From assembly GCF_001650635.1 (NCBI RefSeq), contig NZ_LWQU01000075.1, positions 1 through 59,583 on the forward strand: a stretch of DNA of 59,583 nucleotides, in the 5' to 3' direction. The notes below the pieces were generated by a model. That model worked only from the letters and a program-made list of their open reading frames with translations. It ran no database searches and was not told the DNA's origin. Below, in pieces: positions 622 to 17,473 of the stretch; positions within the stretch are counted from its first letter, which is position 1; the number at the start of each line of letters is the position of its first letter. Source of the DNA: Magnetospirillum moscoviense. Its GTDB lineage: Bacteria; Pseudomonadota; Alphaproteobacteria; Rhodospirillales; Magnetospirillaceae. Both the position numbers and the translations under genes were made by a program.

Positions 622-1158
622 TCAAACCCAGCCCATCGCCCCCGCGCCGGCGCCGGCGGCGATCAGCCATAGCGGATTAAGCCTGGTCTTCACCATCACC
701 CCCAGGGCGGCGGCGAACAGCAGGCCTTGCGCCCAATTGTGGACGGTCATGGTGGTGAGCGACCAGGCGGTGGCGCCGACCATGCCGATGGATAAGGGCA
801 TGATGGCGCGGCGGATGGTCGCCCCCCAGCCGCCCCAGCGGACCTTGGCGCCGAAATGCAGCGACGCCATGGCCAGGATCGAGGGCGGCACGATCAGCGC
901 GGTGGTGGCGGCGACGGCGCCGGTCAGGCCGGCCGCCTGCATGCCGACCAAGGTGGCGAACAACAGATTGGGGCCGGGCGCGATCTGGGCCAGGGTGAAG
1001 CATTCGACGAAGACCTGGGGCGTCATCCACGGATGGGTCTCGGTGACGAAGCGCAGCATTTCCGGGATCAGCGCCAGCACGCCGCCGCCGATGGCCATCA
1101 TCGACAGCAGGGCGAAATGCAGGAACAAGGTCACCGAGATTTCCAGATCGCTGTTCAT
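622..1158 (-). CDS. chrA: CHR-family transporter, C-terminal-type half
   Basis: This 178-residue membrane protein of the short-chain CHR family (chromate/sulfate-type transporters) has about five to six hydrophobic segments. The family signature, a proline-glycine-proline loop (IAPGPN), lies near residue 58. Short-chain CHR proteins occur as adjacent pairs that together make one transporter, and the upstream gene is the partner. The ATG at 1158 is chosen because it overlaps the stop of the upstream half by four bases (ATGA), which suggests translational coupling. Chromate efflux is the textbook role. Given the neighbours, another anion such as an organic acid cannot be excluded. Confidence 0.85.
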   Translation of the reverse strand: MNSDLEISVTLFLHFALLSMMAIGGGVLALIPEMLRFVTETHPWMTPQVFVECFTLAQIAPGPNLLFATLVGMQAAGLTGAVAATTALIVPPSILAMASLHFGAKVRWGGWGATIRRAIMPLSIGMVGATAWSLTTMTVHNWAQGLLFAAALGVMVKTRLNPLWLIAAGAGAGAMGWV

Positions 1159-1703
1159 GGCCGCTTCCCCCAATGGCCGATGGCGATGGCGGCCGTGGCC
1201 AGCACCACCATCACCGCCGGCAACGGCCAGTGCATCACGCCGACGCCGGCGAACATCGCCAAGGCGAACAACACCGGCACCGGGGCCAGCGGCAGCGAGC
1301 GGATCATCGCCAGCGCCATCGCCGCCACCATGGCGGCGGCCACCACCGACATGCCGCGAATGACGTCCTGGACCAGCGGCATGGTGCCGATTCGGGCGTA
1401 CACCACGCCCAGCGCCAGAACGACCGCCGACGGCAGCAGGACCATGCCGGTGACCGCGGCCACCGCGCCGGGGACGCCACGGCGGCGCTGGCCGATGATG
1501 ATGGCCAGGTTGCAGATGGTCGGGCCGGGCAGCATCTGGGCGAAGGCGAAGATTTCGGCGAATTCCTCGGGCGTCAGCAATTTCTTCTGCTCGACCAGCG
1601 CGCGCCGCGCCCACGGCATGACGCCGCCGAAGCCGATCAAGGCCAGCCGCGAGAACAAGACGAACAATCCCCAGACGGTGGGGTTCTCGCGGGGCTTATC
1701 CAT
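1155..1703 (-). CDS. chrA: CHR-family transporter, N-terminal-type half
   Basis: This is the first half of the split CHR transporter: 182 residues from the ATG at 1703. It shows the family pattern of an initial hydrophobic helix with a phenylalanine-glycine-glycine turn (FGGVMPW, about residue 24) and a PGP loop (MLPGPT, about residue 60). Hydrophobic segments fill the rest. The open frame extends upstream, but the added residues are proline/serine-rich and lie inside the LysR gene, so the ATG eight bases before the LysR stop is the better start. It is co-transcribed with the LysR gene upstream and the second half downstream. Substrate specificity is not visible in the sequence. Confidence 0.85.
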   Translation of the reverse strand: MDKPRENPTVWGLFVLFSRLALIGFGGVMPWARRALVEQKKLLTPEEFAEIFAFAQMLPGPTICNLAIIIGQRRRGVPGAVAAVTGMVLLPSAVVLALGVVYARIGTMPLVQDVIRGMSVVAAAMVAAMALAMIRSLPLAPVPVLFALAMFAGVGVMHWPLPAVMVVLATAAIAIGHWGKRP

Positions 1704-2958
1704 GGGCGGGGCGTCCGAAGGCGGGCAGGCCGACGGCATGCAGGCGGATGCCGTCCAGGATGGCCTGGGCGATGGGCGGCAGCAGCGCGCCATCCCGGAG
1801 CGTCAGGCCGATCTGGCGGGTGGTCTGGCCCAGCGGCACCTGCAGCTCGACCAGCACGCCCGATTCGATTTCCACCTGCAATTGGCGCGGCGACATCGCC
1901 GTCAGCATGTCGCTGCTGCCCAGCAATTGCCGCACGATGGCCAGGTCGCCGGTCTCGACCGAGGCCTCGGGCGGGGTCAGGCCCAACTCAGCGAAGGAAT
2001 CGTCGATCAGCCGGCGGCCGGGGGCGTCGGGGCGCGGCAGGATCCATTGCTCGTTCAGCAGGCTTTCCAGCGCGATCATCGGCCGGTCGGCCAATGGATG
2101 ACCGGCGCGGGCGACGATGCCGATGCGGTCCTCGAACAGCGATTCGGTCAACAGGCCGCGGCACAGCGCCTCGGACCGCAGCGCGCCGAAGATCAGGTCG
2201 ATGTCGCCGGTGCGCAGGCCCGACACCAGCACCTCATAGGGGGCCTCGACCATCTTGACCCGAATCTTGGGGAAGCGCTTCAAGGTGTGGGCGATGGCGG
2301 TGGGCAGGATGTAGGTGCGCCCCAGCGGCAGGGCGCCGATGATCACCGTGCCGGCCTGGGTGCCGGCCAGGCCCGAGATGTCGGCCTCCATGTGGCGCAA
2401 CTCGGCGAAGATGCGCTTGGCCGCCGCCACCAGCTTGTCGGCCTTGTCGCTGGCCACCATTCCCTGCGGCATGCGGTGGAACAAAGGCTGGCCGATGGCG
2501 CCCTCGATCCGAGACAGCGCCATGCTGGCGCCTGCCTGCGACATCCCCAGCTTGTCGGCCGCCGCCGACAGGTGGCGCAGTTCGGCCAGTTGTTCCAGCA
2601 TCTGCAGTTTGCGGCCGCTGAACATCAGGTTGGCCAGCACGTTGCGCGAAATCGCCCCCAGGGCGCGCGAGCGGCACAGTTCCTCGACGGTCTGCTCGGC
2701 CTGGTCGTTGATGCGGGCCGCCCGGCGCAGCACCGCCTCGCCATAGGCCGACAGCAGCATGCCGCGCGGCTTTCGTTCGAACAGCACCACGCCCAGGGCG
2801 CGTTCCAGTTCGCGGATCGAGCGGGTGATCGCCGACGAGGCCTTGAAGATGTCGTCCGACGATTTGGTGATGCTGCCGGTGGTCGCCACCGACAGGAAGG
2901 CGCGCAGATGCGTCAGCGTCAGTTCCGGCGTGATGGCGTCGGCATGGGCAATGTTCAT
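1696..2958 (-). CDS. LysR-type regulator with two tandem HTH domains
   Basis: This 420-residue protein is about 110-120 residues longer than an ordinary LysR regulator. A first winged HTH spans about residues 14-72 (LTHLRAFLSVATTGSIT, then SAITRSIRELERALG). A second occupies about 116-172 (LQMLEQLAELRHLSAAA, then ASMALSRIEGAIGQPLF). The periplasmic-binding-like effector domain follows from about 200. The start at 2958 is preferred over upstream in-frame ATGs because it precedes the first HTH closely. The gene is divergent from the TRAP/gallate operon, the classic LysR layout, so it probably controls that operon. It also heads the CHR/GlcG operon. The inducer is unknown; gallate, protocatechuate or a pathway intermediate is inferred only from position. 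Confidence 0.9.
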   Translation of the reverse strand: MNIAHADAITPELTLTHLRAFLSVATTGSITKSSDDIFKASSAITRSIRELERALGVVLFERKPRGMLLSAYGEAVLRRAARINDQAEQTVEELCRSRALGAISRNVLANLMFSGRKLQMLEQLAELRHLSAAADKLGMSQAGASMALSRIEGAIGQPLFHRMPQGMVASDKADKLVAAAKRIFAELRHMEADISGLAGTQAGTVIIGALPLGRTYILPTAIAHTLKRFPKIRVKMVEAPYEVLVSGLRTGDIDLIFGALRSEALCRGLLTESLFEDRIGIVARAGHPLADRPMIALESLLNEQWILPRPDAPGRRLIDDSFAELGLTPPEASVETGDLAIVRQLLGSSDMLTAMSPRQLQVEIESGVLVELQVPLGQTTRQIGLTLRDGALLPPIAQAILDGIRLHAVGLPAFGRPAHG

Positions 2959-3192
2959 CGAACCGAAGGCTCCAACATGACGTGCGCCCGACGAAGGCCT
3001 GTCGCACAACCTTATCTTAGGCCAACAGACGGTCCCTGTAGAAGGGACCATCACAAAAATAGAATGCAGTTTCACGAATGGGCAATGTCTTATCGGCCGA
3101 CCGGGCGCGTATAGTCACAGTCACAATAAGCGAGCTGTCGTGGGCTGATTCATGGCCGGCGGCTGACCGAAAAGGCAGGAGGAGGACAGTCC
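2959..3192. promoter_or_regulatory. Divergent control region between the LysR operon and the TRAP/gallate operon
   Basis: This 234-base region separates two divergent operons. It contains a hairpin-like dyad, GGTCCCT at 3031-3037 and AGGGACC at 3043-3049. A direct repeat of GTCAC lies at 3114-3118 and 3120-3124. A purine-rich ribosome binding site (aggaggagg) lies just before the dctP start. GTCAC/GTGAC elements also occur upstream of ligU, so a shared regulator is possible. Promoter hexamers are not clear enough to place. Confidence 0.55.
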
Positions 3193-4224
3193 ATGTTCAG
3201 GAAGATGTTGGGGGCCGCGATGGCGGTCGCCGTGATGGGTGGCGCTTCAGGTGCCGATGCCCAGGAAGTGACCTTGAAGGTGCACCACTTTCTTGGGCCG
3301 CAGGCGCCGCAACACGCCGCCGTCCTGGCGCCCTGGTGCGACAAGCTGGCCAAGGAATCGAACGACAAGCTGAAGTGCCAGATCTTTCCGGCCATGCAAT
3401 TGGGCGGCACGCCGCCTCAGCTTTACGATCAGGCCCGCGACGGCATCGCCGACGTCATCCTGGTCCTGGCCGGCTATGCCGCCAACCGCTTCCCGCGCAT
3501 GGAAGTGTTCGAGCTGCCCTTCATGATGACCAACGCCGAGGCCACCAGCCGCGCCGCCTGGGATTACCAAGAGACCCTGGCCAAGGACGAGTTCGCCGAG
3601 ACCAAGCTGCTGGCGACCTTCGTGCACGGTCCGGGCAACATCTACACCACCAAGAAGAAGATCGAGAAGCTGGACGACTTCAAGGGTCTGAAGCTGCGCG
3701 CGCCGACGCGCCAGACCAACAAGCTTTTGGCGATGATGGGGGCTTCGCCGGTCGGCATGCCGGTGCCGGCGGTGCCCGAGGCCATCTCCAAGGGCGTCAT
3801 CGACGGCGCGGTCATTCCCTACGAGGTTGCCCCCGCCATCAAGATGAACGAGCTGGTCAAGCACACCGCCGAGACCGACCGGTCCTACAACGCGCTTTAT
3901 ACCGCGGTGTTCCTGGTGGCGATGAACAAGGCCAAGTACGATTCGCTGCCGGCCGACCTGAAGAAGGTGCTGGACGCCAATTCGGGCGGCGAGGTGTCGG
4001 GCATGTTCGGCAAGGCCATGCTGGCCGCCGACGCGCCGGCCAAGGAAAAGATGCTGGCCTCGGGCGTCGAGATCAACGTGATCCCTGCCGCCGAGCTCGA
4101 CAAGTGGAAGAAGGCGTCGGACGCCCTGGATGATGCCTGGGTCAAGGACATGGATGCCAAGGGCTTCGACGGCAAGAAGCTGCTGCAATCGGCCCAGGAC
4201 CTGACCAAGAAGTATACCAAGTAG
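3193..4224 (+). CDS. dctP: TRAP transporter solute-binding protein (DctP family), probable aromatic-acid uptake
   Basis: This 343-residue protein has a Sec-type signal peptide of about 23 residues (MFRKMLG start, cleavage after GADA). The mature part has the DctP fold and includes the conserved loop KGLKLRAPTRQTNKLLAMMGA at about residues 174-194, which holds the arginine that binds the substrate carboxylate. It is periplasmic and delivers substrate to the DctQM membrane unit encoded next. The strong AGGAGG-type site fixes the start. Its operon continues into gallate dioxygenase, ligJ and ligK, so protocatechuate, gallate, 4-hydroxybenzoate or a related acid is the likely cargo. That is inference from context; the sequence alone does not give the ligand. 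Confidence 0.9.
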   Translation: MFRKMLGAAMAVAVMGGASGADAQEVTLKVHHFLGPQAPQHAAVLAPWCDKLAKESNDKLKCQIFPAMQLGGTPPQLYDQARDGIADVILVLAGYAANRFPRMEVFELPFMMTNAEATSRAAWDYQETLAKDEFAETKLLATFVHGPGNIYTTKKKIEKLDDFKGLKLRAPTRQTNKLLAMMGASPVGMPVPAVPEAISKGVIDGAVIPYEVAPAIKMNELVKHTAETDRSYNALYTAVFLVAMNKAKYDSLPADLKKVLDANSGGEVSGMFGKAMLAADAPAKEKMLASGVEINVIPAAELDKWKKASDALDDAWVKDMDAKGFDGKKLLQSAQDLTKKYTK

Positions 4225-4234
4225 ACGCTGACCC

Positions 4235-4259
4235 GGGGGCGGTCCTTGGGGTCGCCCCC
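4235..4259 (+). terminator. Intercistronic hairpin after dctP
   Basis: GGGGGCG at 4235-4241 pairs with CGCCCCC at 4253-4259 around an 11-base loop, and only a short mixed sequence follows. Hairpins here are common in TRAP operons. They either stabilise the upstream message or partly terminate it, so that the binding protein is made in excess over the membrane subunits. The lack of a good T-run argues against full termination. Confidence 0.55.
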
Positions 4260-4282
4260 TTCCCAATCATCAGGAGGGTGTC

Positions 4283-4804
4283 ATGGCTGACGCCATTTAC
4301 ACCGAGACGGACACGCAATACGGTCCGATCGGAAGGGTGCTCGACGCCCTGTCCAAGGCCTTCGCCATCGCGGCGGGAATCGTGTTGACGGTGCTGGCGA
4401 TCTTGTCGTTGGTCAGCATCATCGGGCGCTCGGCCTTCGCCATGCCGGTGATGGGCGATTACGAACTGGTGCAGATCATGTCGGCGGTGGCCGTGGCCAT
4501 GTCGCTGCCCTTCTGCCAGATGGTGCGCGGTCATGTGATCGTCGATTTCTTCACCCATAATTGCCCGCCCAAAATCAACCGCTTCATGGACCTGATCGCC
4601 AACCTGCTGCTGTGCCTGGGGGCGTTCCTGTTCGCTTGGCGCAACGCGGTCGGCCTGATGGAGCTCAGGAAGTCGGGCGACGCCTCTATGCTGCTCGATA
4701 TCCCCACTTGGGTCGGCTACGTCCCCTTCATCCTGTCCTTCGCCCTGCTGGGCTGCACCGCGCTGTATTCGGCCTGGGAAGATTTCACCGGAGAGCGCAA
4801 ATGA
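4283..4804 (+). CDS. dctQ: TRAP transporter small permease (DctQ)
   Basis: This 173-residue membrane protein has four predicted transmembrane helices (about residues 25-50, 60-80, 95-118 and 140-160), the standard DctQ architecture. It pairs with the large permease DctM to form the sodium-driven TRAP membrane unit. A good AGGAGG lies a few bases before the ATG. The stop overlaps the dctM start (ATGA at 4801-4804), indicating translational coupling. DctQ sequences are poorly conserved, so the assignment rests on size, helix pattern and position between dctP and dctM. Confidence 0.88.
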   Translation: MADAIYTETDTQYGPIGRVLDALSKAFAIAAGIVLTVLAILSLVSIIGRSAFAMPVMGDYELVQIMSAVAVAMSLPFCQMVRGHVIVDFFTHNCPPKINRFMDLIANLLLCLGAFLFAWRNAVGLMELRKSGDASMLLDIPTWVGYVPFILSFALLGCTALYSAWEDFTGERK

Positions 4805-6117
4805 GCGGTATCGAGTACGGCCTGATCATCGGCGGCCTGATGATCCTGCTGCTGGCGCTACGCGTCCATATCGGTGGCGCGATGCTGATCGCCGGTAGCA
4901 TCGGCTATTACTGGTTCAGCGGCGCCGATCCGGTCTTGAGTTACTTCAAGCACGCGGCCTATGCCCGCTTTTCGGTCTACGATCTGTCGGTGGTGCCCCT
5001 CTTCCTGCTGATGGGCCAGTTCGCCACCCATGGTGGCCTGTCCAAGGCGCTGTTCAAGGCCGGCAACGCCATGATCGGCCATTGGCGCGGCGGCATGGCC
5101 ATGGCCGGCGTCTCGGCCTGCGCCGGCTTCGGCGCCATCTGCGGCTCGTCGCTGGCCACCGCCGCCACCATGGCCCAGGTGGCCCTGCCGGAGCTGCGCA
5201 GCCACGGCTATTCGCCGCGCCTGGCCGGCGCCGCCCTGGCCGCCGGCGGCACGCTGGGCATCCTGATCCCGCCGTCGGTGCCGCTGGTGATCTATGCCAT
5301 CCTGACGGAACAAAGCATCGGCAAGCTGTTCATGGCCGCCTTCGTGCCCGGCATCATCGCGGCGCTGGGCTATATGGCGGTGATCTCGATCATCGCGCGC
5401 CTGTCGCCGGGCGACGCCCCGGCCGGCGACCGTTTCAGCTGGGGCCAGCGTCTGCAGGCCATCATCGACACCTGGCCGGTCATCTTGATCTTCGCCGTGG
5501 TGATCATCGGCATCTATGGCGGCTGGTTCACCCCCACCGAGGCGGCCTCGGTCGGCACCGTCGCCACCGCCTTCGTCGCCTGGAACTCGGGTGGCCTGAA
5601 GGGCAGGGGCTTCCTGGAATGCGTCTACGGCGCCGCCAAGGCCACCGGCATGATTTTCCTGATCCTGCTGGGCGCCGACGTGCTGAACGTGTTCCTGGCG
5701 CTGACCCAGATGCCGGCCGAACTGGCCCGGTGGGTGGTCGGGTTGAACCTGCCGCCCCTGATGATCATCTTCACCATCATCGCCATCTACCTGTTCCTGG
5801 GCTGCATCATGGACAGCCTGTCGATGCTGATGCTGACCATTCCGATCTTCTTCCCGATCATCGTCGGCACCGATTTCTGGGGCATGGAGCTGGAACCCAA
5901 GGCGATCTGGTTCGGTATCGTTGCCCTGATGACGGTGGAAATCGGTCTGATCACGCCGCCGGTCGGGATGAACGTCTACATCATCAGCTCGATGGCCAAG
6001 GACATTCCCATGAAGGAGGTGTTCAAGGGCATCGTGCCGTTCCTGTGCTCGGACTTGGCGCGCATCGTTTTGCTGGTGTTCTTCCCCGGAATCACGCTGA
6101 TCGCGCTTAACTTCTAG
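4801..6117 (+). CDS. dctM: TRAP transporter large permease (DctM)
   Basis: This 438-residue integral membrane protein has about twelve hydrophobic segments typical of DctM. Glycine/serine-rich re-entrant regions are visible near residues 95-150 (GFGAICGSSLATAATM, then AAGGTLGILIPPSVPLVIYA), and a second such pair lies in the C-terminal half (GCIMDSLSMLMLTIPIFFP, LITPPVGMN). These are hallmark motifs of the ion transporter superfamily fold. The start at 4801 is used rather than the long upstream extension because it gives the normal DctM N-terminus and overlaps the dctQ stop. It completes the transporter made with DctP and DctQ and lies 11 bases before the gallate dioxygenase gene. Confidence 0.93.
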   Translation: MSGIEYGLIIGGLMILLLALRVHIGGAMLIAGSIGYYWFSGADPVLSYFKHAAYARFSVYDLSVVPLFLLMGQFATHGGLSKALFKAGNAMIGHWRGGMAMAGVSACAGFGAICGSSLATAATMAQVALPELRSHGYSPRLAGAALAAGGTLGILIPPSVPLVIYAILTEQSIGKLFMAAFVPGIIAALGYMAVISIIARLSPGDAPAGDRFSWGQRLQAIIDTWPVILIFAVVIIGIYGGWFTPTEAASVGTVATAFVAWNSGGLKGRGFLECVYGAAKATGMIFLILLGADVLNVFLALTQMPAELARWVVGLNLPPLMIIFTIIAIYLFLGCIMDSLSMLMLTIPIFFPIIVGTDFWGMELEPKAIWFGIVALMTVEIGLITPPVGMNVYIISSMAKDIPMKEVFKGIVPFLCSDLARIVLLVFFPGITLIALNF

Positions 6118-6128
6118 GAGAGCGTTTC

Positions 6129-7424
6129 ATGGCCCGCATCATCGGCGGCATCGCCTGTTCCCATACGCCGACCATCGGTTTCGCCGTCGATGGCGACAAG
6201 CGCAACGACCCGGTGTGGAAGCCGATCTTCGACGGCTTCGAGCCGGCCCGCCAATGGCTGGCCGACACCAAGCCCGACGTGTTGTTCATGATCTTCAACG
6301 ATCATGTCACCTCGTTCTTCTTCGACCATTATTCGGCCTTCACGCTGGGCATCGACAGCCAGTACGGCGTCGCCGACGAAGGCGGGGGCGCGCGTGACCT
6401 GCCGCCGGTGCCGGCCCATGCGGCGCTGGCCCAGCATATCGGCGCCTCGCTGATGGCCGACGAGTTCGACATGTCGTTCTTCCAGGACAAGAAGCTGGAC
6501 CATGGCAGCCTGTCGCCGCTGTCGATATTGTGCGACCATCCCGACGGTTCCTGGCCCATCCCGATCGTGCCGCTGGCGGTCGGCGTGCTGCAATTTCCGG
6601 TGCCGTCGGCCAAACGCTGCTGGAAGCTGGGCAAGGCTTTGCGCCGCGCGGTGGAAAGCTACCCCGAGGATCTGAAGGTCGCGGTGATCGCCACCGGCGG
6701 CCTGTCGCATCAGGTCCATGGCGCCCGGGCCGGCTTCACCAACCAGGAATGGGACCACCAGTTCCTTGACTTGTTCGAGAAGGACCCCGAGGCCCTGACC
6801 CGGCTGACCATCGCCGATCTGGCCGAACTGGGCGGCGTCGAAGGCGCCGAGGTGATCATGTGGCTGATCATGCGCGGCGCGCTGTCGGCCGGCATCAAGA
6901 AGCTGCACCAATCCTATACACTGCCATCGATGACCGGCATCGCCGTCGCGGTTTATGAGAACCAGGACCAGATGCTGCCCAAGGACAAGGAAGCCGAACA
7001 GCGCGCCCATATCGGGCACCAACTGGCCGGGGCCGAGCAGATCGCCGGCATCCATCCCTTCACCCTGGCGACCAGCGTCAGGGCTTACCGCCTCAACAAG
7101 TTCCTGCACCGCATGATCGAGCCCGATCATCGCCAGCGTTTCCTGGCCGACCCCGAAGGCGCCTTCGCCGAATGGGGCCTGACCGAGGAAGAGAGTGACA
7201 TGGTGCGCCGCCGCGACTGGGACGCGTTGATCCGTTACGGCGTGATTTTCTTCATGCTGGAAAAGCTGGGCGCGGTGGTCGGTGTTTCGAACCTGCACAT
7301 CTATGCCGCCATGCGCGGCGAAACGCTGGAGCAGTTCCTGGCCACCCGCAACCAGCCGACCGCCCTTTACTCGGTCGCCGGCAAGGAGGGCATGAAGGAC
7401 CTGAAGTGGGACAAGGCCAGTTAA
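6129..7424 (+). CDS. desB: Gallate dioxygenase (DesB/GalA type)
   Basis: This 431-residue extradiol ring-cleavage enzyme of the LigB (type II) superfamily converts gallate to 4-oxalomesaconate using Fe(II) and O2. The N-terminal catalytic part (about 1-280) contains the iron ligand histidines at residue 12 (CSHTPTIG) and residue 59 (FNDHVTSFF), the catalytic histidine in GGLSHQ, and a conserved EGAEVIMWLIMRGAL segment. A LigA-like domain is fused at the C-terminus (about 310-420: LHRMIEPDHRQRF, YGVIFFMLEKLG). This fusion separates gallate dioxygenases from the two-subunit LigAB enzyme encoded at 10.4-11.6 kb. The product feeds directly into LigJ, encoded next. 3-O-methylgallate activity is possible but less likely, given overall resemblance to DesB. 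Confidence 0.92.
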   Translation: MARIIGGIACSHTPTIGFAVDGDKRNDPVWKPIFDGFEPARQWLADTKPDVLFMIFNDHVTSFFFDHYSAFTLGIDSQYGVADEGGGARDLPPVPAHAALAQHIGASLMADEFDMSFFQDKKLDHGSLSPLSILCDHPDGSWPIPIVPLAVGVLQFPVPSAKRCWKLGKALRRAVESYPEDLKVAVIATGGLSHQVHGARAGFTNQEWDHQFLDLFEKDPEALTRLTIADLAELGGVEGAEVIMWLIMRGALSAGIKKLHQSYTLPSMTGIAVAVYENQDQMLPKDKEAEQRAHIGHQLAGAEQIAGIHPFTLATSVRAYRLNKFLHRMIEPDHRQRFLADPEGAFAEWGLTEEESDMVRRRDWDALIRYGVIFFMLEKLGAVVGVSNLHIYAAMRGETLEQFLATRNQPTALYSVAGKEGMKDLKWDKAS

Positions 7425-7446
7425 GAACAATAACAGGACGACCATC

Positions 7447-8475
7447 ATGATCATCGATATCCACGGGCACTACACCACGGCACCCAAGGCGCTGGAGGAC
7501 TGGCGCAACCGCCAGGTCGCCGGCCTGAAGGACCCAAGCCAGGCACCGAAAGTGTCCGAGCTGACCATCAGCGACGACGAATTGCGCGAAAGCATCGAGA
7601 CCAACCAGTTGGCCAAGATGAAGGAACGCGGGTCGGACCTGACGGTGTTCTCGCCCCGGGCCAGCTTCATGGCCCACCATATCGGTGATTTCGCCACCAG
7701 CTCGACCTGGGCCGCCATCTGCAACGAGCTGTGCGCCCGCGTCGCCCAACTGTTTCCCGACAATTTCATCGGGGCGGCGATGCTGCCGCAATCGCCGGGA
7801 ATCGATCCCAAGACCTGCATCCCCGAGATCGAGACGTGCGTCAAGGATTACGGCTTCGTCGCCATCAACCTCAATCCCGACCCGTCGGGCGGGCACTGGA
7901 CCTCGCCGCCCTTGTCCGATCGCCATTGGTACCCGATCTACGAGGCGATGGTCGAATACGAGCTGCCGGCCATGGTCCACGTCTCGACCTCGTGCAATGC
8001 CTGCTTCCACACCACCGGGGCGCATTACCTGAACGCCGACACCACCGCCTTCATGCAGTGCCTGACATCGGACCTGTTCAAGGACTTCCCGACCTTGAAG
8101 TTCATCATCCCCCATGGCGGCGGCGCGGTGCCCTATCATTGGGGCCGCTTCCGGGGCCTGGCGCAGGAGCTGAAGAAGCCGCACCTGCGCGAACACTTGC
8201 TCAACAACATCTTCTTCGACACCTGCGTCTACCATCAGCCGGGCATCGACTTGCTGACCAAGGTCATCCCGGTCGACAACATCTTGTTCGCGTCCGAGAT
8301 GATCGGGGCGGTGCGGGGCATCGACCCCGAGACCGGGCATTATTACGACGACACCAAGCGCTATATCGAGGCGACGCTGAACCTGTCGGCCGAGGACCGC
8401 TATAAGGTCTATGAAGGCAATGCGCGCCGCGTTTATCCCCGCCTGGACCGGGCGTTGAAGGCGAAAGGGCTTTGA
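7447..8475 (+). CDS. ligJ: 4-oxalomesaconate hydratase (LigJ)
   Basis: This 342-residue enzyme of the amidohydrolase superfamily has almost exactly the length of LigJ. Metal-binding histidines are visible in the N-terminal DIHGHYTT motif (residues 6 and 8), with further conserved segments [31 protein letters not shown] and [11 protein letters not shown]. It hydrates the isomerised oxalomesaconate to 4-carboxy-4-hydroxy-2-oxoadipate in the cytoplasm. It lies 22 bases after the gallate dioxygenase gene and is followed directly by ligK, so the lower pathway is co-expressed with gallate cleavage. It must also serve the protocatechuate branch encoded on the other strand. Confidence 0.93.
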
Positions 8476-8477
8476 GC

Positions 8478-9161
8478 ATGAACAATCTGGGAATCGTCAA
8501 GCGCAATATCGACCGCGCCGATCGGGCGGCAGTCGAGCATTTGTCCCAATTCGGCGTCGCCACCATCCACGAGGCCATGGGCCGGGTCGGCCTGATGAAG
8601 CCTTATATGCGTCCGATCTATCCGGGCGCCCGGCTGTGCGGCACGGCGGTCACGGTTTTGCTGCATCCCGGCGACAATTGGATGATGCATGTGGCAGCCG
8701 AGCAGATTCAGCCCGGCGATGTGGTGGTGGCGGCGATTTCCGCCGAATGCACCGACGGCTTCTTCGGCGATTTGCTGGCCACCTCGTTCCGGGCGCGTGG
8801 CGCGGTGGGTCTGGTGATCGATGCCGGCGTGCGCGACGTGCGCGACCTGACCGAGATGGGTTTTCCGGTCTTTTCCAAATGCATCAGCGCCAAGGGCACC
8901 ATCAAGGCGACCTTGGGCAGCGTCAACATCCCGGTCATCTGCGCCGGGGCATTGGTCAATCCCGGCGACGTGGTGGCGGCCGACGATGACGGCGTGGTGG
9001 TGGTCCCGGCCGCCATCGCTGCACAGGCGGCCGACGCGGCCGCCGCGCGCGAGGCCAACGAAGCCTCGAAGCGCCAGCGCCTGGCCGCCGGCGAACTGGG
9101 GCTGGACATGTATGACATGCGGCCGGCGCTCGCCAAGGCGGGGCTGAAATATATCGATTGA
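8478..9161 (+). CDS. ligK: 4-carboxy-4-hydroxy-2-oxoadipate aldolase (LigK)
   Basis: This 227-residue protein of the RraA-like class II aldolase family cleaves 4-carboxy-4-hydroxy-2-oxoadipate to pyruvate and oxaloacetate, the last step of the 4,5-cleavage route. The active-site segment [14 protein letters not shown] carries the Arg-Asp pair known to bind the 2-oxo acid and the metal. Further conserved parts are [11 protein letters not shown] and DDDGVVVVP. The ATG at 8478, three bases after the ligJ stop, is preferred. A TTG at 8472 is also in frame but would overlap ligJ. It ends three bases from the pobA stop on the other strand. Confidence 0.92.
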
Positions 9162-13552: not shown

Positions 13553-14473
13553 TCAGATCCTTTCTTCGGGCCAATAAAGCCGCATGGGGTTGTCGACCAG
13601 CAGCTTCTTCTGCAATTCGGCCGAGGGCGCGATGTGGGGGATGAAATCGACCAGAAGCCCGTCATCGGGCATGTGGTCCTTCAGGTTGGGATGCGGCCAG
13701 TCGGTGCCCCACAGAACGCGATCCGGGAAGGTCTCGACGATGCGCCGCGCGAAGGGCACCACGTCGCGATAGGCGGCCTGCTGGCCGTCCAGGGCCGGGG
13801 GGCCGGACAGCGACAGGCGCTCGGGGCAGCTGACCTTGCTCCAGACATTGGCATGCTCGCGCATGAATTTGACGAACAGCTCGAATTCGGGGCCGTCCAC
13901 CGGCTTGGCGACGTCGGGCCGGCCCATATGATCGACCACCAATTCGGTCGGCAGGGCGGTGAAGAAATCCCACAGATCGGGTAGGTCGACCGCCTCGAAA
14001 TAGATCACCACGTGCCAGCCCAGGGGCGCGATGCGGGCGGCGATCTCCATCAACTCGTCCTTGGGGGTGAAATCCACCAGACGGCGGACGAAATTGAAGC
14101 GCACGCCGCGCACGCCGGCCTCGTGCATCGCCTTCAGGTCCTGGTCGGTGACGGTGCGCCGTACGGTGGCGATGCCGCGCGCCTTGCCGCCCGAATGGGC
14201 CAGCGCATCGACCATGGCGGAATTGTCGGCGCCGTGACAGGTGGCCTGGACCACGATGTTTCGGGCAAAGCCCAGATGGTCGCGAAGGGCGAACAATTGG
14301 TCCTTCGAGGCGTCGCACGGGGTGTATTTGCGTTCGGGCGCGAAGGGGAAGCGCTCGCCCGGCCCGAAGACGTGGCAATGGGCATCGACCGCGCCGGCCG
14401 GCAGGCGGAACTTGGGGGAAGAGGGGCCGTGATACCAATCCAGCCAGCCCGGGGTCTTTTCGAAATGGCTCAC
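13553..14473 (-). CDS. ligI: 2-pyrone-4,6-dicarboxylate hydrolase (LigI)
   Basis: This 306-residue amidohydrolase-superfamily lactonase opens 2-pyrone-4,6-dicarboxylate to oxalomesaconate. The active-site motifs are VDAHCHVFGP near residue 29 and LWGTDWPHPN near 265, with GVRGVRFNFVRR and VVIYFEAVDL between. The start is taken as the GTG at 14473, which overlaps the stop of the upstream gene by four bases (GTGA). The long open frame further upstream lies inside the neighbouring gene. Members of this family work without a tightly bound metal. The gene sits between the DUF1932 dehydrogenase and ligC. Confidence 0.93.
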   Translation of the reverse strand: MSHFEKTPGWLDWYHGPSSPKFRLPAGAVDAHCHVFGPGERFPFAPERKYTPCDASKDQLFALRDHLGFARNIVVQATCHGADNSAMVDALAHSGGKARGIATVRRTVTDQDLKAMHEAGVRGVRFNFVRRLVDFTPKDELMEIAARIAPLGWHVVIYFEAVDLPDLWDFFTALPTELVVDHMGRPDVAKPVDGPEFELFVKFMREHANVWSKVSCPERLSLSGPPALDGQQAAYRDVVPFARRIVETFPDRVLWGTDWPHPNLKDHMPDDGLLVDFIPHIAPSAELQKKLLVDNPMRLYWPEERI

Positions 14474-15390
14474 TGGGCTTGATCCTTCAGTATGGCGATG
14501 ATGCGATCGGCCTCGGTGCGCCAATCGGCGGATTTGGCGAAGCCGGGCGTGCCGCGTTGCCCGAACAGTCCCCGGTCGGCCAGATCGGCCATCTGCGCCT
14601 GACGCTCGGCGGTGCCGGCGGCCGATAAGGGGGCCAGGCCCATCTCGCGAACGGTGCGGGCGGATTCGCGCATTTCCTCGGCGCGGCGGCGGCCGTGCTG
14701 GATCACCCGTTGGAAGAAATAGCTGCCCAGCTTCTCCCATTCCATGCCGGGGAAGGTCTCGACCAACGAGGCGATCACCTGATCCTCGACGCCATAGGCC
14801 CGGGCGGCGGTGAAGCTTTCGATCACCATGGCCTCCAGGCCCTTGATCATCACCGAGCGGCACATCTTGGTCGCCGAGGCCACCCCCAGTTGGTCCGACG
14901 CCACCTTGGCGGCGAAGCCCAGGGCGTTGAGGCGGGGTTCCAGCGCGGCGGCGTCTGGGCCGCCCAGCAGCAGCGGCACCTGGATGCGGGGCGGCGGCAC
15001 CGAGGTCATCACCGCGCCCTCGACGAAGCGGCCGCCAGCCCCGTTGACCAGTTCGGCCGTCTCGATCTTGGCCTTGGGCGAGGCCGAATTGAAATCCAGG
15101 AACCAGGTGCTGTCTCCGATGCCGGGCACTGCCGACCGGGCCGCCGACACCGATTGCGACGCGGTCACCGCCGAGATGATCAGATCCGACCGGGCGGCCA
15201 GGGCCGCGTGGTCCGGCATCAGTTCCACCCCGAAGCGGGCCCCATGTTCGGCCAGTTCCGCCGCGGCTGGGCCAGCCTGCTTGATGTCGTGGGCGAAGAC
15301 GGCGATCTTTCGCGCCCGCAGATCCTCGGCCAGGATGCGGCCGACCTCGCCATAACCGATCAGGCCGATGGTGCGGATGTCCTTGTCCAT
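14470..15390 (-). CDS. Beta-hydroxyacid-dehydrogenase-like protein with DUF1932 domain
   Basis: This 306-residue protein has an N-terminal NAD(P)-binding Rossmann domain (IGLIGYGEVGRILA at residues 8-21, then LIISAVTASQS) of the 6-phosphogluconate/3-hydroxyisobutyrate dehydrogenase type. Its C-terminal helical DUF1932 domain starts near residue 190 and contains a conserved lysine in ATKMCRSVMIKGLEA. It is the second gene of the operon, one base overlapping the ligU stop and four overlapping ligI, so it is tightly coupled to both. Homologues turn up in aromatic operons, but I know of no proven reaction. It could reduce or oxidise a branched hydroxyacid intermediate. A GTG at 15393 is an alternative start. 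Confidence 0.82.
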   Translation of the reverse strand: MDKDIRTIGLIGYGEVGRILAEDLRARKIAVFAHDIKQAGPAAAELAEHGARFGVELMPDHAALAARSDLIISAVTASQSVSAARSAVPGIGDSTWFLDFNSASPKAKIETAELVNGAGGRFVEGAVMTSVPPPRIQVPLLLGGPDAAALEPRLNALGFAAKVASDQLGVASATKMCRSVMIKGLEAMVIESFTAARAYGVEDQVIASLVETFPGMEWEKLGSYFFQRVIQHGRRRAEEMRESARTVREMGLAPLSAAGTAERQAQMADLADRGLFGQRGTPGFAKSADWRTEADRIIAILKDQAQ

Positions 15391-16478: not shown

Positions 16479-16585
16479 TCAATCTCTCCCAGTCGTCGTC
16501 GGAATCATGGTGACAAAAACCGTCACCCGGACCAAGGCCCGGGCGTCACTTTTAGCTATAGCAAATTGTTATGGCTGGGGCGTTT
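16479..16585. promoter_or_regulatory. Control region of the ligU-pobA operon
   Basis: This short region between the LysR stop and the ligU start holds two candidate operators. ATAGCAAATTGTTAT at 16558-16572 fits the LysR T-N11-A box with dyad ends ATA and TAT. GGTGAC at 16509-16514 and GTCACC at 16522-16527 form a perfect inverted repeat with seven bases between, followed by another GTCAC near 16545-16549. The regulator is presumably the LysR protein encoded immediately upstream, or the double-HTH LysR at 1.7-3.0 kb, or both. Confidence 0.55.
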
Positions 16586-17473
16586 TCAGCCCATTTCGGT
16601 GCGGACCAAATCGCGCAGCAGCGCCATGGCCCGCCGGCCCAGCGGAGTGATCGGCTTGTGCGCGGAAACCGCCAGGAACAAGGTGCTGGTCACCGCCGGC
16701 TCGACTAGCCGGCGCAGGCTGAAGCTGCCCGAGCGGCGCCACGCCACCAGCGCGGTCTGGGTCAGGACGGCGCTGCCGTAACCGGCGGCCACCAGATCCA
16801 GAATCGACGGGATCGACGACACTTCCATCACCACTTTCAGGCGCACCCCGGCCAGGGCGGCCTGGGTTTCCAGCAGGCGGCGCATAGCGTGCGAGCGTTC
16901 GGGCAGGATCAGCGGGACCGTCCCCAATTCCGACCACAGCAGGGTCGGCGGATAGTCGCCGGCCGGCACCACCAGGCCCAAGGGCTCGTCCATCAGGGGC
17001 GTCACCTCGATGGCCGGGCTGGGCTCGGGATTGTGAACCAGGCCGACATCGACGCGGCCGCCGGCGATCCATTCGGTGACATGGGTCGATAGCCCCTCGA
17101 CGATGGCCGGCCGCGCCTTGGGCAGGGTGCGGCGAAAGGCCTCGACCAGCGGCAGGGTCAGGCGCCGCCCGACGCTGGGCGGCAGGCCGATGACGATGCG
17201 CCCGGCCGGCTCGTCCCTGGCCGATTCCAGGTCCTCGGCGGCGCGCTCGACCGATTGCAGGATGCCGACCGAATGTTCGAACAATCGCCGCCCGGCCTCG
17301 GTCAGGGCGACGCCGCGGCCGTTGCGGGTCAACAGCGCCACCCGCAGGTCGGTTTCCAGCAGGCGGACCTGGCGGGACAGTGCCGGCTGGGCGATATCCA
17401 GCACCATGGCGGCCTTGGAGAAGCTGCCCAGCTCGGCGACGCGGACGAAATATTCGAGCTGGCGCAGGTTCAT
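16586..17473 (-). CDS. LysR-type transcriptional regulator of the ligU operon (predicted)
   Basis: This 295-residue, standard-length LysR protein has a winged HTH at residues 1-60 (LRQLEYFVRVAELGSFSKAA, then QPALSRQVRLLETDL) and an effector domain from about residue 90 (GRIVIGLPPSV). It resembles the Nac/CynR-like branch more than PcaQ/CatR types, but I cannot name an orthologue. It lies 107 bases upstream of ligU on the same strand rather than divergent, so read-through into the operon is possible. A LysR-type T-N11-A box lies in the gap. The inducer is likely a pathway intermediate, by analogy to LigR, and this is inference. Confidence 0.9.
   Translation of the reverse strand: MNLRQLEYFVRVAELGSFSKAAMVLDIAQPALSRQVRLLETDLRVALLTRNGRGVALTEAGRRLFEHSVGILQSVERAAEDLESARDEPAGRIVIGLPPSVGRRLTLPLVEAFRRTLPKARPAIVEGLSTHVTEWIAGGRVDVGLVHNPEPSPAIEVTPLMDEPLGLVVPAGDYPPTLLWSELGTVPLILPERSHAMRRLLETQAALAGVRLKVVMEVSSIPSILDLVAAGYGSAVLTQTALVAWRRSGSFSLRRLVEPAVTSTLFLAVSAHKPITPLGRRAMALLRDLVRTEMG

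Follow-up and report, generated by a model that had tools for sequence, protein, structure and literature searches.

Why should a LysR-type regulator that sits beside gallate genes carry two DNA-binding domains? Few families of bacterial regulators are as abundant as the LysR proteins. In the usual picture, each chain of about 300 residues has one helix-turn-helix (HTH) and a tetramer, supplying four heads, sits on the DNA. The exception considered here is encoded by Magnetospirillum moscoviense in a stretch of 59,583 nucleotides (contig NZ_LWQU01000075.1, positions 1 to 59,583), which we call the window. A first-pass annotation of the window had proposed a two-headed chain of a build not known from any characterized regulator of the lig route, and an eight-headed tetramer that could loop DNA.

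RESULTS

Two HTH units precede one effector domain

Comparison of the 420-residue chain with Pfam found two HTH_1 stretches (together 104.9 bits against a cut-off of 26.6; best, residues 15 to 74) and one LysR_substrate domain (Table 1), in agreement with the first-pass annotation. When the whole genome was scanned for HTH_1, both units separately exceeded the cut-off of 26.6, and they made up two of the 12 matches, the other 10 lying elsewhere. Neither unit has lost its HTH_1 match or its recognition helix. The N-terminal LysR HTH and the C-terminal LysR substrate domain, both above cut-off, mark the protein as a LysR-type transcriptional regulator, and it departs from the usual build in its two HTH_1 units and its 420 residues.

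HTH1 and the stretch after it (residues 14 to 96) align with residues 2 to 84 of BenM, a protein of solved structure, and residues 117 to 406 align with residues 15 to 300 of a 324-residue LysR protein (5y2v). The best NCBIfam model, for this protein as for two homologues, was PcaQ (TIGR02424), which covered HTH2 and the effector domain (residues 116 to 407). The PcaQ model holds one HTH, unlike the window protein, and the score of 202.1 bits fell short of the equivalog cut-off of 303.8. Because of the BenM and 5y2v alignments and the NCBIfam match over the HTH2 and effector part, the regulator reads as a whole LysR protein with one extra LysR DNA-binding unit in front. A single-sequence structure prediction gave a mean pLDDT of 35.3 and was set aside as evidence. 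Translation likely starts at the ATG at 2958. A longer frame of 459 amino acids could open at a GTG at 3075, but the ATG is favored because the GTG start would enter the conserved block at 3050 to 3087 described below.

Table 1. Coordinates of the regulator, its candidate operator and the neighboring genes in the window
Feature	Position	Strand	Basis
Two-HTH LysR regulator, GalR type, 420 aa	1696..2958	-	Pfam domains and GalR branch of tree
HTH1, residues 15-74, Arg kept in recognition helix	2737..2916	-	HTH_1, 59.7 bits
HTH2, residues 116-171, Met at Arg position	2446..2613	-	HTH_1, 53.3 bits
Effector-binding domain, residues 199-404	1747..2364	-	PF03466 LysR_substrate, one copy, 117.5 bits
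Likely operator, 38 bp	3050..3087	+	Conserved in four genomes
Operator box 1	3050-3064	+	
Operator box 2	3071-3087	+	
Likely -10 element TATAGT of TRAP/gallate promoter	3110..3115	+	Invariant in four-genome alignment; predicted
Likely target operon: TRAP genes, gallate dioxygenase, amidohydrolase, CHA aldolase	3193..9161	+	
Gallate dioxygenase	6129-7424	+	NF009904, 753 bits
Amidohydrolase of LigJ type	7447-8475	+	
CHA aldolase GalC/LigK	8472-9161	+	
CHR-family gene behind LysR	1155..1703	-	PF02417, 111.5 bits

The build recurs in distant homologues

An accidental fusion or an assembly artefact in the window genome would also give a chain with two heads, and the gene is present in only 3 of 13 genomes of the genus; beyond that we found no support for such an accident. 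Full-length relatives, however, occur in 28 of 398 Pseudomonadota genomes when a P. oryzihabitans protein is the query (E ≤ 1e-45), in 29 places that all span residue 8 or earlier through residue 378 or later of the query. They also occur in 16 of 198 genomes (E ≤ 1e-100) of a family presumed to be Pseudomonadaceae from OprF and from proteins 96 to 98% identical to the P. oryzihabitans one. Moreover, the distance from HTH to HTH is 89 to 101 residues in 72 of 80 chains. Pfam found two HTH_1 stretches and one effector domain in 8 of 8 chosen distant two-HTH homologues and a single HTH_1 in 2 of 2 single-HTH relatives. An accidental origin of the build is excluded because the two stretches and the one effector domain recur in all eight. 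The conserved architecture thus refutes an artefact, which we consider vanishingly improbable.

Closer to the window, 8 of 61 kin genomes, its own included, had full-length relatives (E ≤ 1e-40), and across the class 10 of 289 genomes gave matches, some of them less than full length. Of 283 plasmid records that matched, 138 covered at least 80% of the query. The whole collection came to 76 distinct LysR proteins with two HTH units, all from Pseudomonadota.

The regulator faces gallate genes

As the first-pass annotation had it, the regulator gene and the TRAP/gallate genes are transcribed divergently; the TRAP genes were assigned by tblastn match to annotated TRAP genes of locus L076. A second block on the minus strand encodes LigB, LigA, an aldo/keto reductase, a GFO/IDH oxidoreductase and 4-oxalomesaconate tautomerase. 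Gallate genes had been suggested as the likely target, and these surroundings bear the suggestion out. We note that the tautomerase/LigAB block is headed by a LysR gene of its own with a single HTH (16586-17473, minus strand), and that proteins resembling its product adjoin gal clusters in L132 and L133 and occur near other LysR loci in L083 and L085. Between the GFO/IDH oxidoreductase and orf14470 lies an open reading frame (13553-14863, minus strand) whose second half resembles 2-pyrone-4,6-dicarboxylate hydrolase by eye.

Behind the LysR gene, CHR (chromate-transporter family) and HbpS-like genes occupy 199-1703 on the minus strand. The CHR gene has a possible start at 1703, which would give an 8-bp overlap with the LysR stop. 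All three closest relatives (L051-L053) have a CHR gene downstream of LysR, and an HbpS/GlcG-like gene follows it in one of the three. Because CHR is kept behind LysR in these relatives, the CHR protein may export or import a compound of the gallate route instead of chromate.

Similar company is kept elsewhere. Among 60 two-HTH loci selected by LysR similarity, with near-copies kept in, a gene of the OMA route (galA, ligA, ligB, ligJ type, galB, galC/ligK, galD or ligC) lay within 8 kb in 54 and within 600 bp in 43. One of eight single-HTH relatives was near such a gene. The six two-HTH genes that lack an OMA-route neighbor at up to 8 kb (L064, which is at a contig end, L068, L073, L154, L161 and L164) either have targets elsewhere or do other jobs. 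Conversely, a two-HTH LysR gene was present in 9 of 14 loci fetched by a match of the gallate-dioxygenase type, of which two (L049 and L050) score below that family's cut-off, and was absent from L043 to L047. One of these, L045 (G302:C3), has two full gallate-dioxygenase genes about 1.7 kb apart in a fetched stretch that holds no two-HTH LysR gene.

GalR and LigR very probably share the build

Synteny points to GalR of P. putida KT2440, a LysR protein that activates galTAP and galBCD. According to the accessible text of PMC9942251, the KT2440 galR gene has galP as a neighbor and is transcribed away from galB, the GalR effector is 4-oxalomesaconate, and the predicted GalR RBS has a T-N11-A core, with a repeated AACGCAT also described; the RBS is given as ATAAANAAANNGNAT in that of PMC12314914. 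Loci L135, L140 and L141 have the order galT-galA-galP-galR, divergent galBCD, with a two-HTH LysR gene in the galR place. Upstream of galB in 14 Pseudomonadaceae-type loci, the RBS was exact in four, had one mismatch in nine and had two mismatches in one; it was also exact in L037, L038 and L162, presumed to be Enterobacteriaceae, and the AACGCAT repeat is visible in several loci. From synteny and operator, the known KT2440 GalR very probably has the two-HTH build. Like GalR, the window regulator stands next to gallate genes, in its case divergent from the operon for gallate dioxygenase and CHA aldolase, and it shares a branch with two-HTH proteins of KT2440-like clusters that have the published RBS. 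Unlike GalR, it is paired with TRAP and CHR genes rather than galT or galP.

LigR appears to be a second case. In the accessible text of PMC12710314, ligR lies between ligKUI and SARO_RS14280-ligJABC, and LigR leaves a footprint of about 30 bp (-51 to -85) with the motif TT-N-GC-N6-TTAT. The order ligKUI, ligR, oxidoreductase-ligJABC recurs on a plasmid of Sphingobium xenophagum, with a two-HTH LysR protein of 389 aa in the ligR place and the LigR motif exact upstream. Of the 35 LigR-branch loci, 17 have the motif upstream at one mismatch or fewer, where 4.0 would be expected, and 18 lack it. Thus, synteny and motif suggest that the known LigR, too, very probably has the two-HTH build. The window protein resembles LigR of Sphingobium SYK-6 and Novosphingobium aromaticivorans in its compact site. 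It differs in belonging to the other branch, the LigR branch carrying its Arg-bearing head as HTH2, and in gene position, since the window LysR gene faces the TRAP/gallate genes instead of lying between ligKUI and ligJABC. FldY, so annotated in Sphingobium TomTYG72, has two HTH_1 units and an effector domain, as the window protein does, but falls in the LigR branch; it is described as a putative regulator beside fluorene/protocatechuate genes in Sphingobium in the accessible part of PMC8431788. PA2206 was considered as a precedent and dropped, as the label "non-classical" in the accessible text concerns PA2206 regulation.

The claim that no characterized regulator of the lig route has this build is therefore not supported, if GalR and LigR group here as synteny and operator indicate. 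The build itself appears to have gone unremarked so far. We found no remark on it in the openly accessible literature searched (subscription papers and supplements lay outside reach), and the words helix, domain, motif and tetramer each occur 0 times in the main text of PMC12710314 as accessible.

The two-HTH proteins fall into two branches

A tree was built by a quick method from HTH2 and the effector domain of 106 rows; KT2440 GalR is not among them, and the outgroup row L001 is a single distant locus from a contig scan with the regulator protein. A single branch (SH-aLRT 87) joined all 76 two-HTH proteins, in a tree with many long branches. They divided into a LigR-like branch of 35 rows (SH-aLRT 91), a GalR-like branch of 40 rows (SH-aLRT 99) and L057 alone. 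The GalR branch contains the window protein and three close relatives, the regulators of KT2440-like gal clusters (SH-aLRT 99, in the same quick tree) and plasmid proteins of Cupriavidus, Burkholderia, Klebsiella, Pantoea and P. oryzihabitans. Because plasmid proteins are found in this branch and presence in the genus is patchy, the regulator gene was possibly gained horizontally.

A single origin of the two-HTH build is not proven by these sequences. HTH1 is alike between the GalR and LigR sets (0.39), and HTH2 between the sets (0.29) is no closer than it is to single-HTH proteins (0.33 and 0.31). A tree of the HTH alone has 57 columns and gives no indication of the source of HTH1. Recent internal duplication was rejected, as HTH1 and HTH2 within a chain are 26 to 30% identical, the same as between chains.

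The two heads are equally conserved and differ in the recognition helix

Two different heads had been proposed, and the recognition helices indeed differ. The residue that follows a conserved Ser/Thr in the LysR recognition helix is expected to touch DNA. At this position, the window protein has Arg in HTH1, and its HTH2 lacks the usual Arg; Met takes its place throughout the window's clade. In the GalR set, in which L057 (29% identical) was counted for head comparisons even though it lies outside both branches, HTH1 has Arg in 41 of 41 chains and HTH2 has neither Arg nor Lys in 41 of 41. The LigR branch shows the reverse, with Gln in HTH1 in 29 of 35 chains (Arg or Lys in 0 of 35) and Arg in HTH2 in 34 of 35. 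Exactly one head bears Arg in 75 of 76 chains, and which head that is has been swapped between branches, being HTH1 in the GalR set and HTH2 in the LigR branch.

One head without Arg in 75 of 76 chains is what would be expected if a single head read DNA and the other were a structural or dimerizing relic or a helper. The Arg-less head, however, is well above the HTH_1 cut-off and is a different unit in each branch. Moreover, both heads are equally conserved, with mean pairwise identities of 0.53 for HTH1 and 0.55 for HTH2 in the GalR set (45 chains) and of 0.42 for each in the LigR branch (35 chains). Finally, Arg or Lys is present at that position in 19 of 30 single-HTH LysR proteins, and at least 11 of the 30 do without. 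We consider reading by one head unlikely, and the two heads probably read different sequences.

A compact block upstream of the gallate promoter is the likely operator

The intergenic region of the window was aligned with those of three relatives. One block of 38 bp stands out: 31 of its 38 columns are identical, compared with 12 of 91 in the flank before it and 13 of 105 in the flank after it. Within the block TCAC is repeated at 21 bp. Each of its two boxes occurs once in the window at three mismatches or fewer (0.13 and 0.09 expected), and the whole block occurs once in the genome at that threshold, where a backward-pattern control gave 0. The interval 16479-16585 had also been singled out for binding; it holds no operator copy, and neither box finds a match there with fewer than 6 mismatches in 15, which speaks against a site.

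Offsets were taken from anchored boxes, as an automatic search for upstream blocks mostly took coding sequence. The best self-match offset was 21 bp in the Pseudomonas-type set (10 loci, z 5.9), the Enterobacteriaceae-type set (7 loci, z 5.8, with 22 bp near at 5.0) and the window-clade set (4 loci, z 5.0), all z-values being inflated by kin rows within sets and by simple shuffles. Neither the Cupriavidus set (2 of 3 anchored) nor the LigR-branch loci (19 of 23 anchored) had 21 bp as the best offset. The Pseudomonas-type and Enterobacteriaceae-type boxes are related, and the window's box differs. LysR heads work in pairs, each pair reading a T-N11-A box about 15 bp long. By eye, box 1 retains the T-N11-A core, and 4 of the 11 positions fixed in the KT2440 RBS carry a different base in it. 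The LigR motif matches once with one mismatch, at 3001-3015 on the plus strand, outside the conserved block and probably by chance.

DISCUSSION

How a two-headed LysR protein might act on the gallate genes can be sketched from these comparisons. In the reading we prefer, in which our confidence falls slightly short of even, the regulator would be a GalR-type activator from a two-headed GalR/LigR subfamily that binds the 38-bp operator as a dimer and is induced by 4-oxalomesaconate. Each chain would place two different functional heads ahead of one effector domain, and a dimer would set four heads on two boxes 21 bp apart, which, at two helical turns, would lie on the same face of the DNA. The operator would lie immediately before the promoter that drives the TRAP-galA-amidohydrolase-galC genes. 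Binding of a product of ring cleavage, with 4-oxalomesaconate the likeliest candidate, would lead to activation of the gallate genes, and the regulator's own LysR-CHR genes would probably be controlled from the same operator. Of this scheme, we infer the dimer state, the effector, the activation and the pairing of heads with boxes. Against the GalR-type model stand the mismatches of box 1 to the KT2440 RBS, the missing 21-bp offset in two sets and the six two-HTH genes with no OMA-route gene nearby.

How many chains occupy the operator is the point at which the alternatives part. A dimer could suffice because two boxes 21 bp apart need four heads and a two-HTH chain has two. The dimer reading agrees with a block of 38 bp and with the roughly 30 bp that LigR protects; AccR, a LysR protein of the conventional build, covers about 70 bp, from -110 to -40, in the accessible text of PMC11602165. 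The regulator might instead be of the GalR type and form a normal tetramer with eight heads, four of them on the operator and the rest steadying it, looping DNA or holding a second site. LysR proteins generally form dimers and tetramers, as the same text has it, and the footprint of SYK-6 LigR is extended by PCA or gallate (PMC12710314, accessible text), which could mean more protein on the DNA. The tetramer is opposed by the single compact block, which has no second copy in the genome at three mismatches or fewer (dissimilar sites would escape such a search), and by the short LigR footprint. A short footprint alone does not fix the number of chains. We favor the four-headed dimer over the eight-headed tetramer, to which we give a smaller but substantial chance. 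Looping by an eight-headed tetramer, as first proposed, finds little room in a site this compact, and the tetramer itself is still compatible with it. Thus, the two heads and the likely gallate target of the first interpretation are supported, and the unprecedented build, the looping and the site at 16479-16585 are not.

Because the group very probably includes GalR and LigR, the role of the regulator is largely known. More speculatively, and with appreciable doubt, GalR and LigR might together make up a class of LysR proteins in which two-headed dimers replace the tetramer, the roles of the two heads with respect to Arg are swapped, unlike boxes lie 21 bp apart, and the build has gone unremarked even though members have long been under study. 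Why LysR proteins require four heads, and how they read their two sites, are questions for which the two-headed subfamily provides a natural test. GalR and LigR are relevant to gallic-acid biosensors and to the use of lignin, and engineering them as one-headed proteins would mislead.
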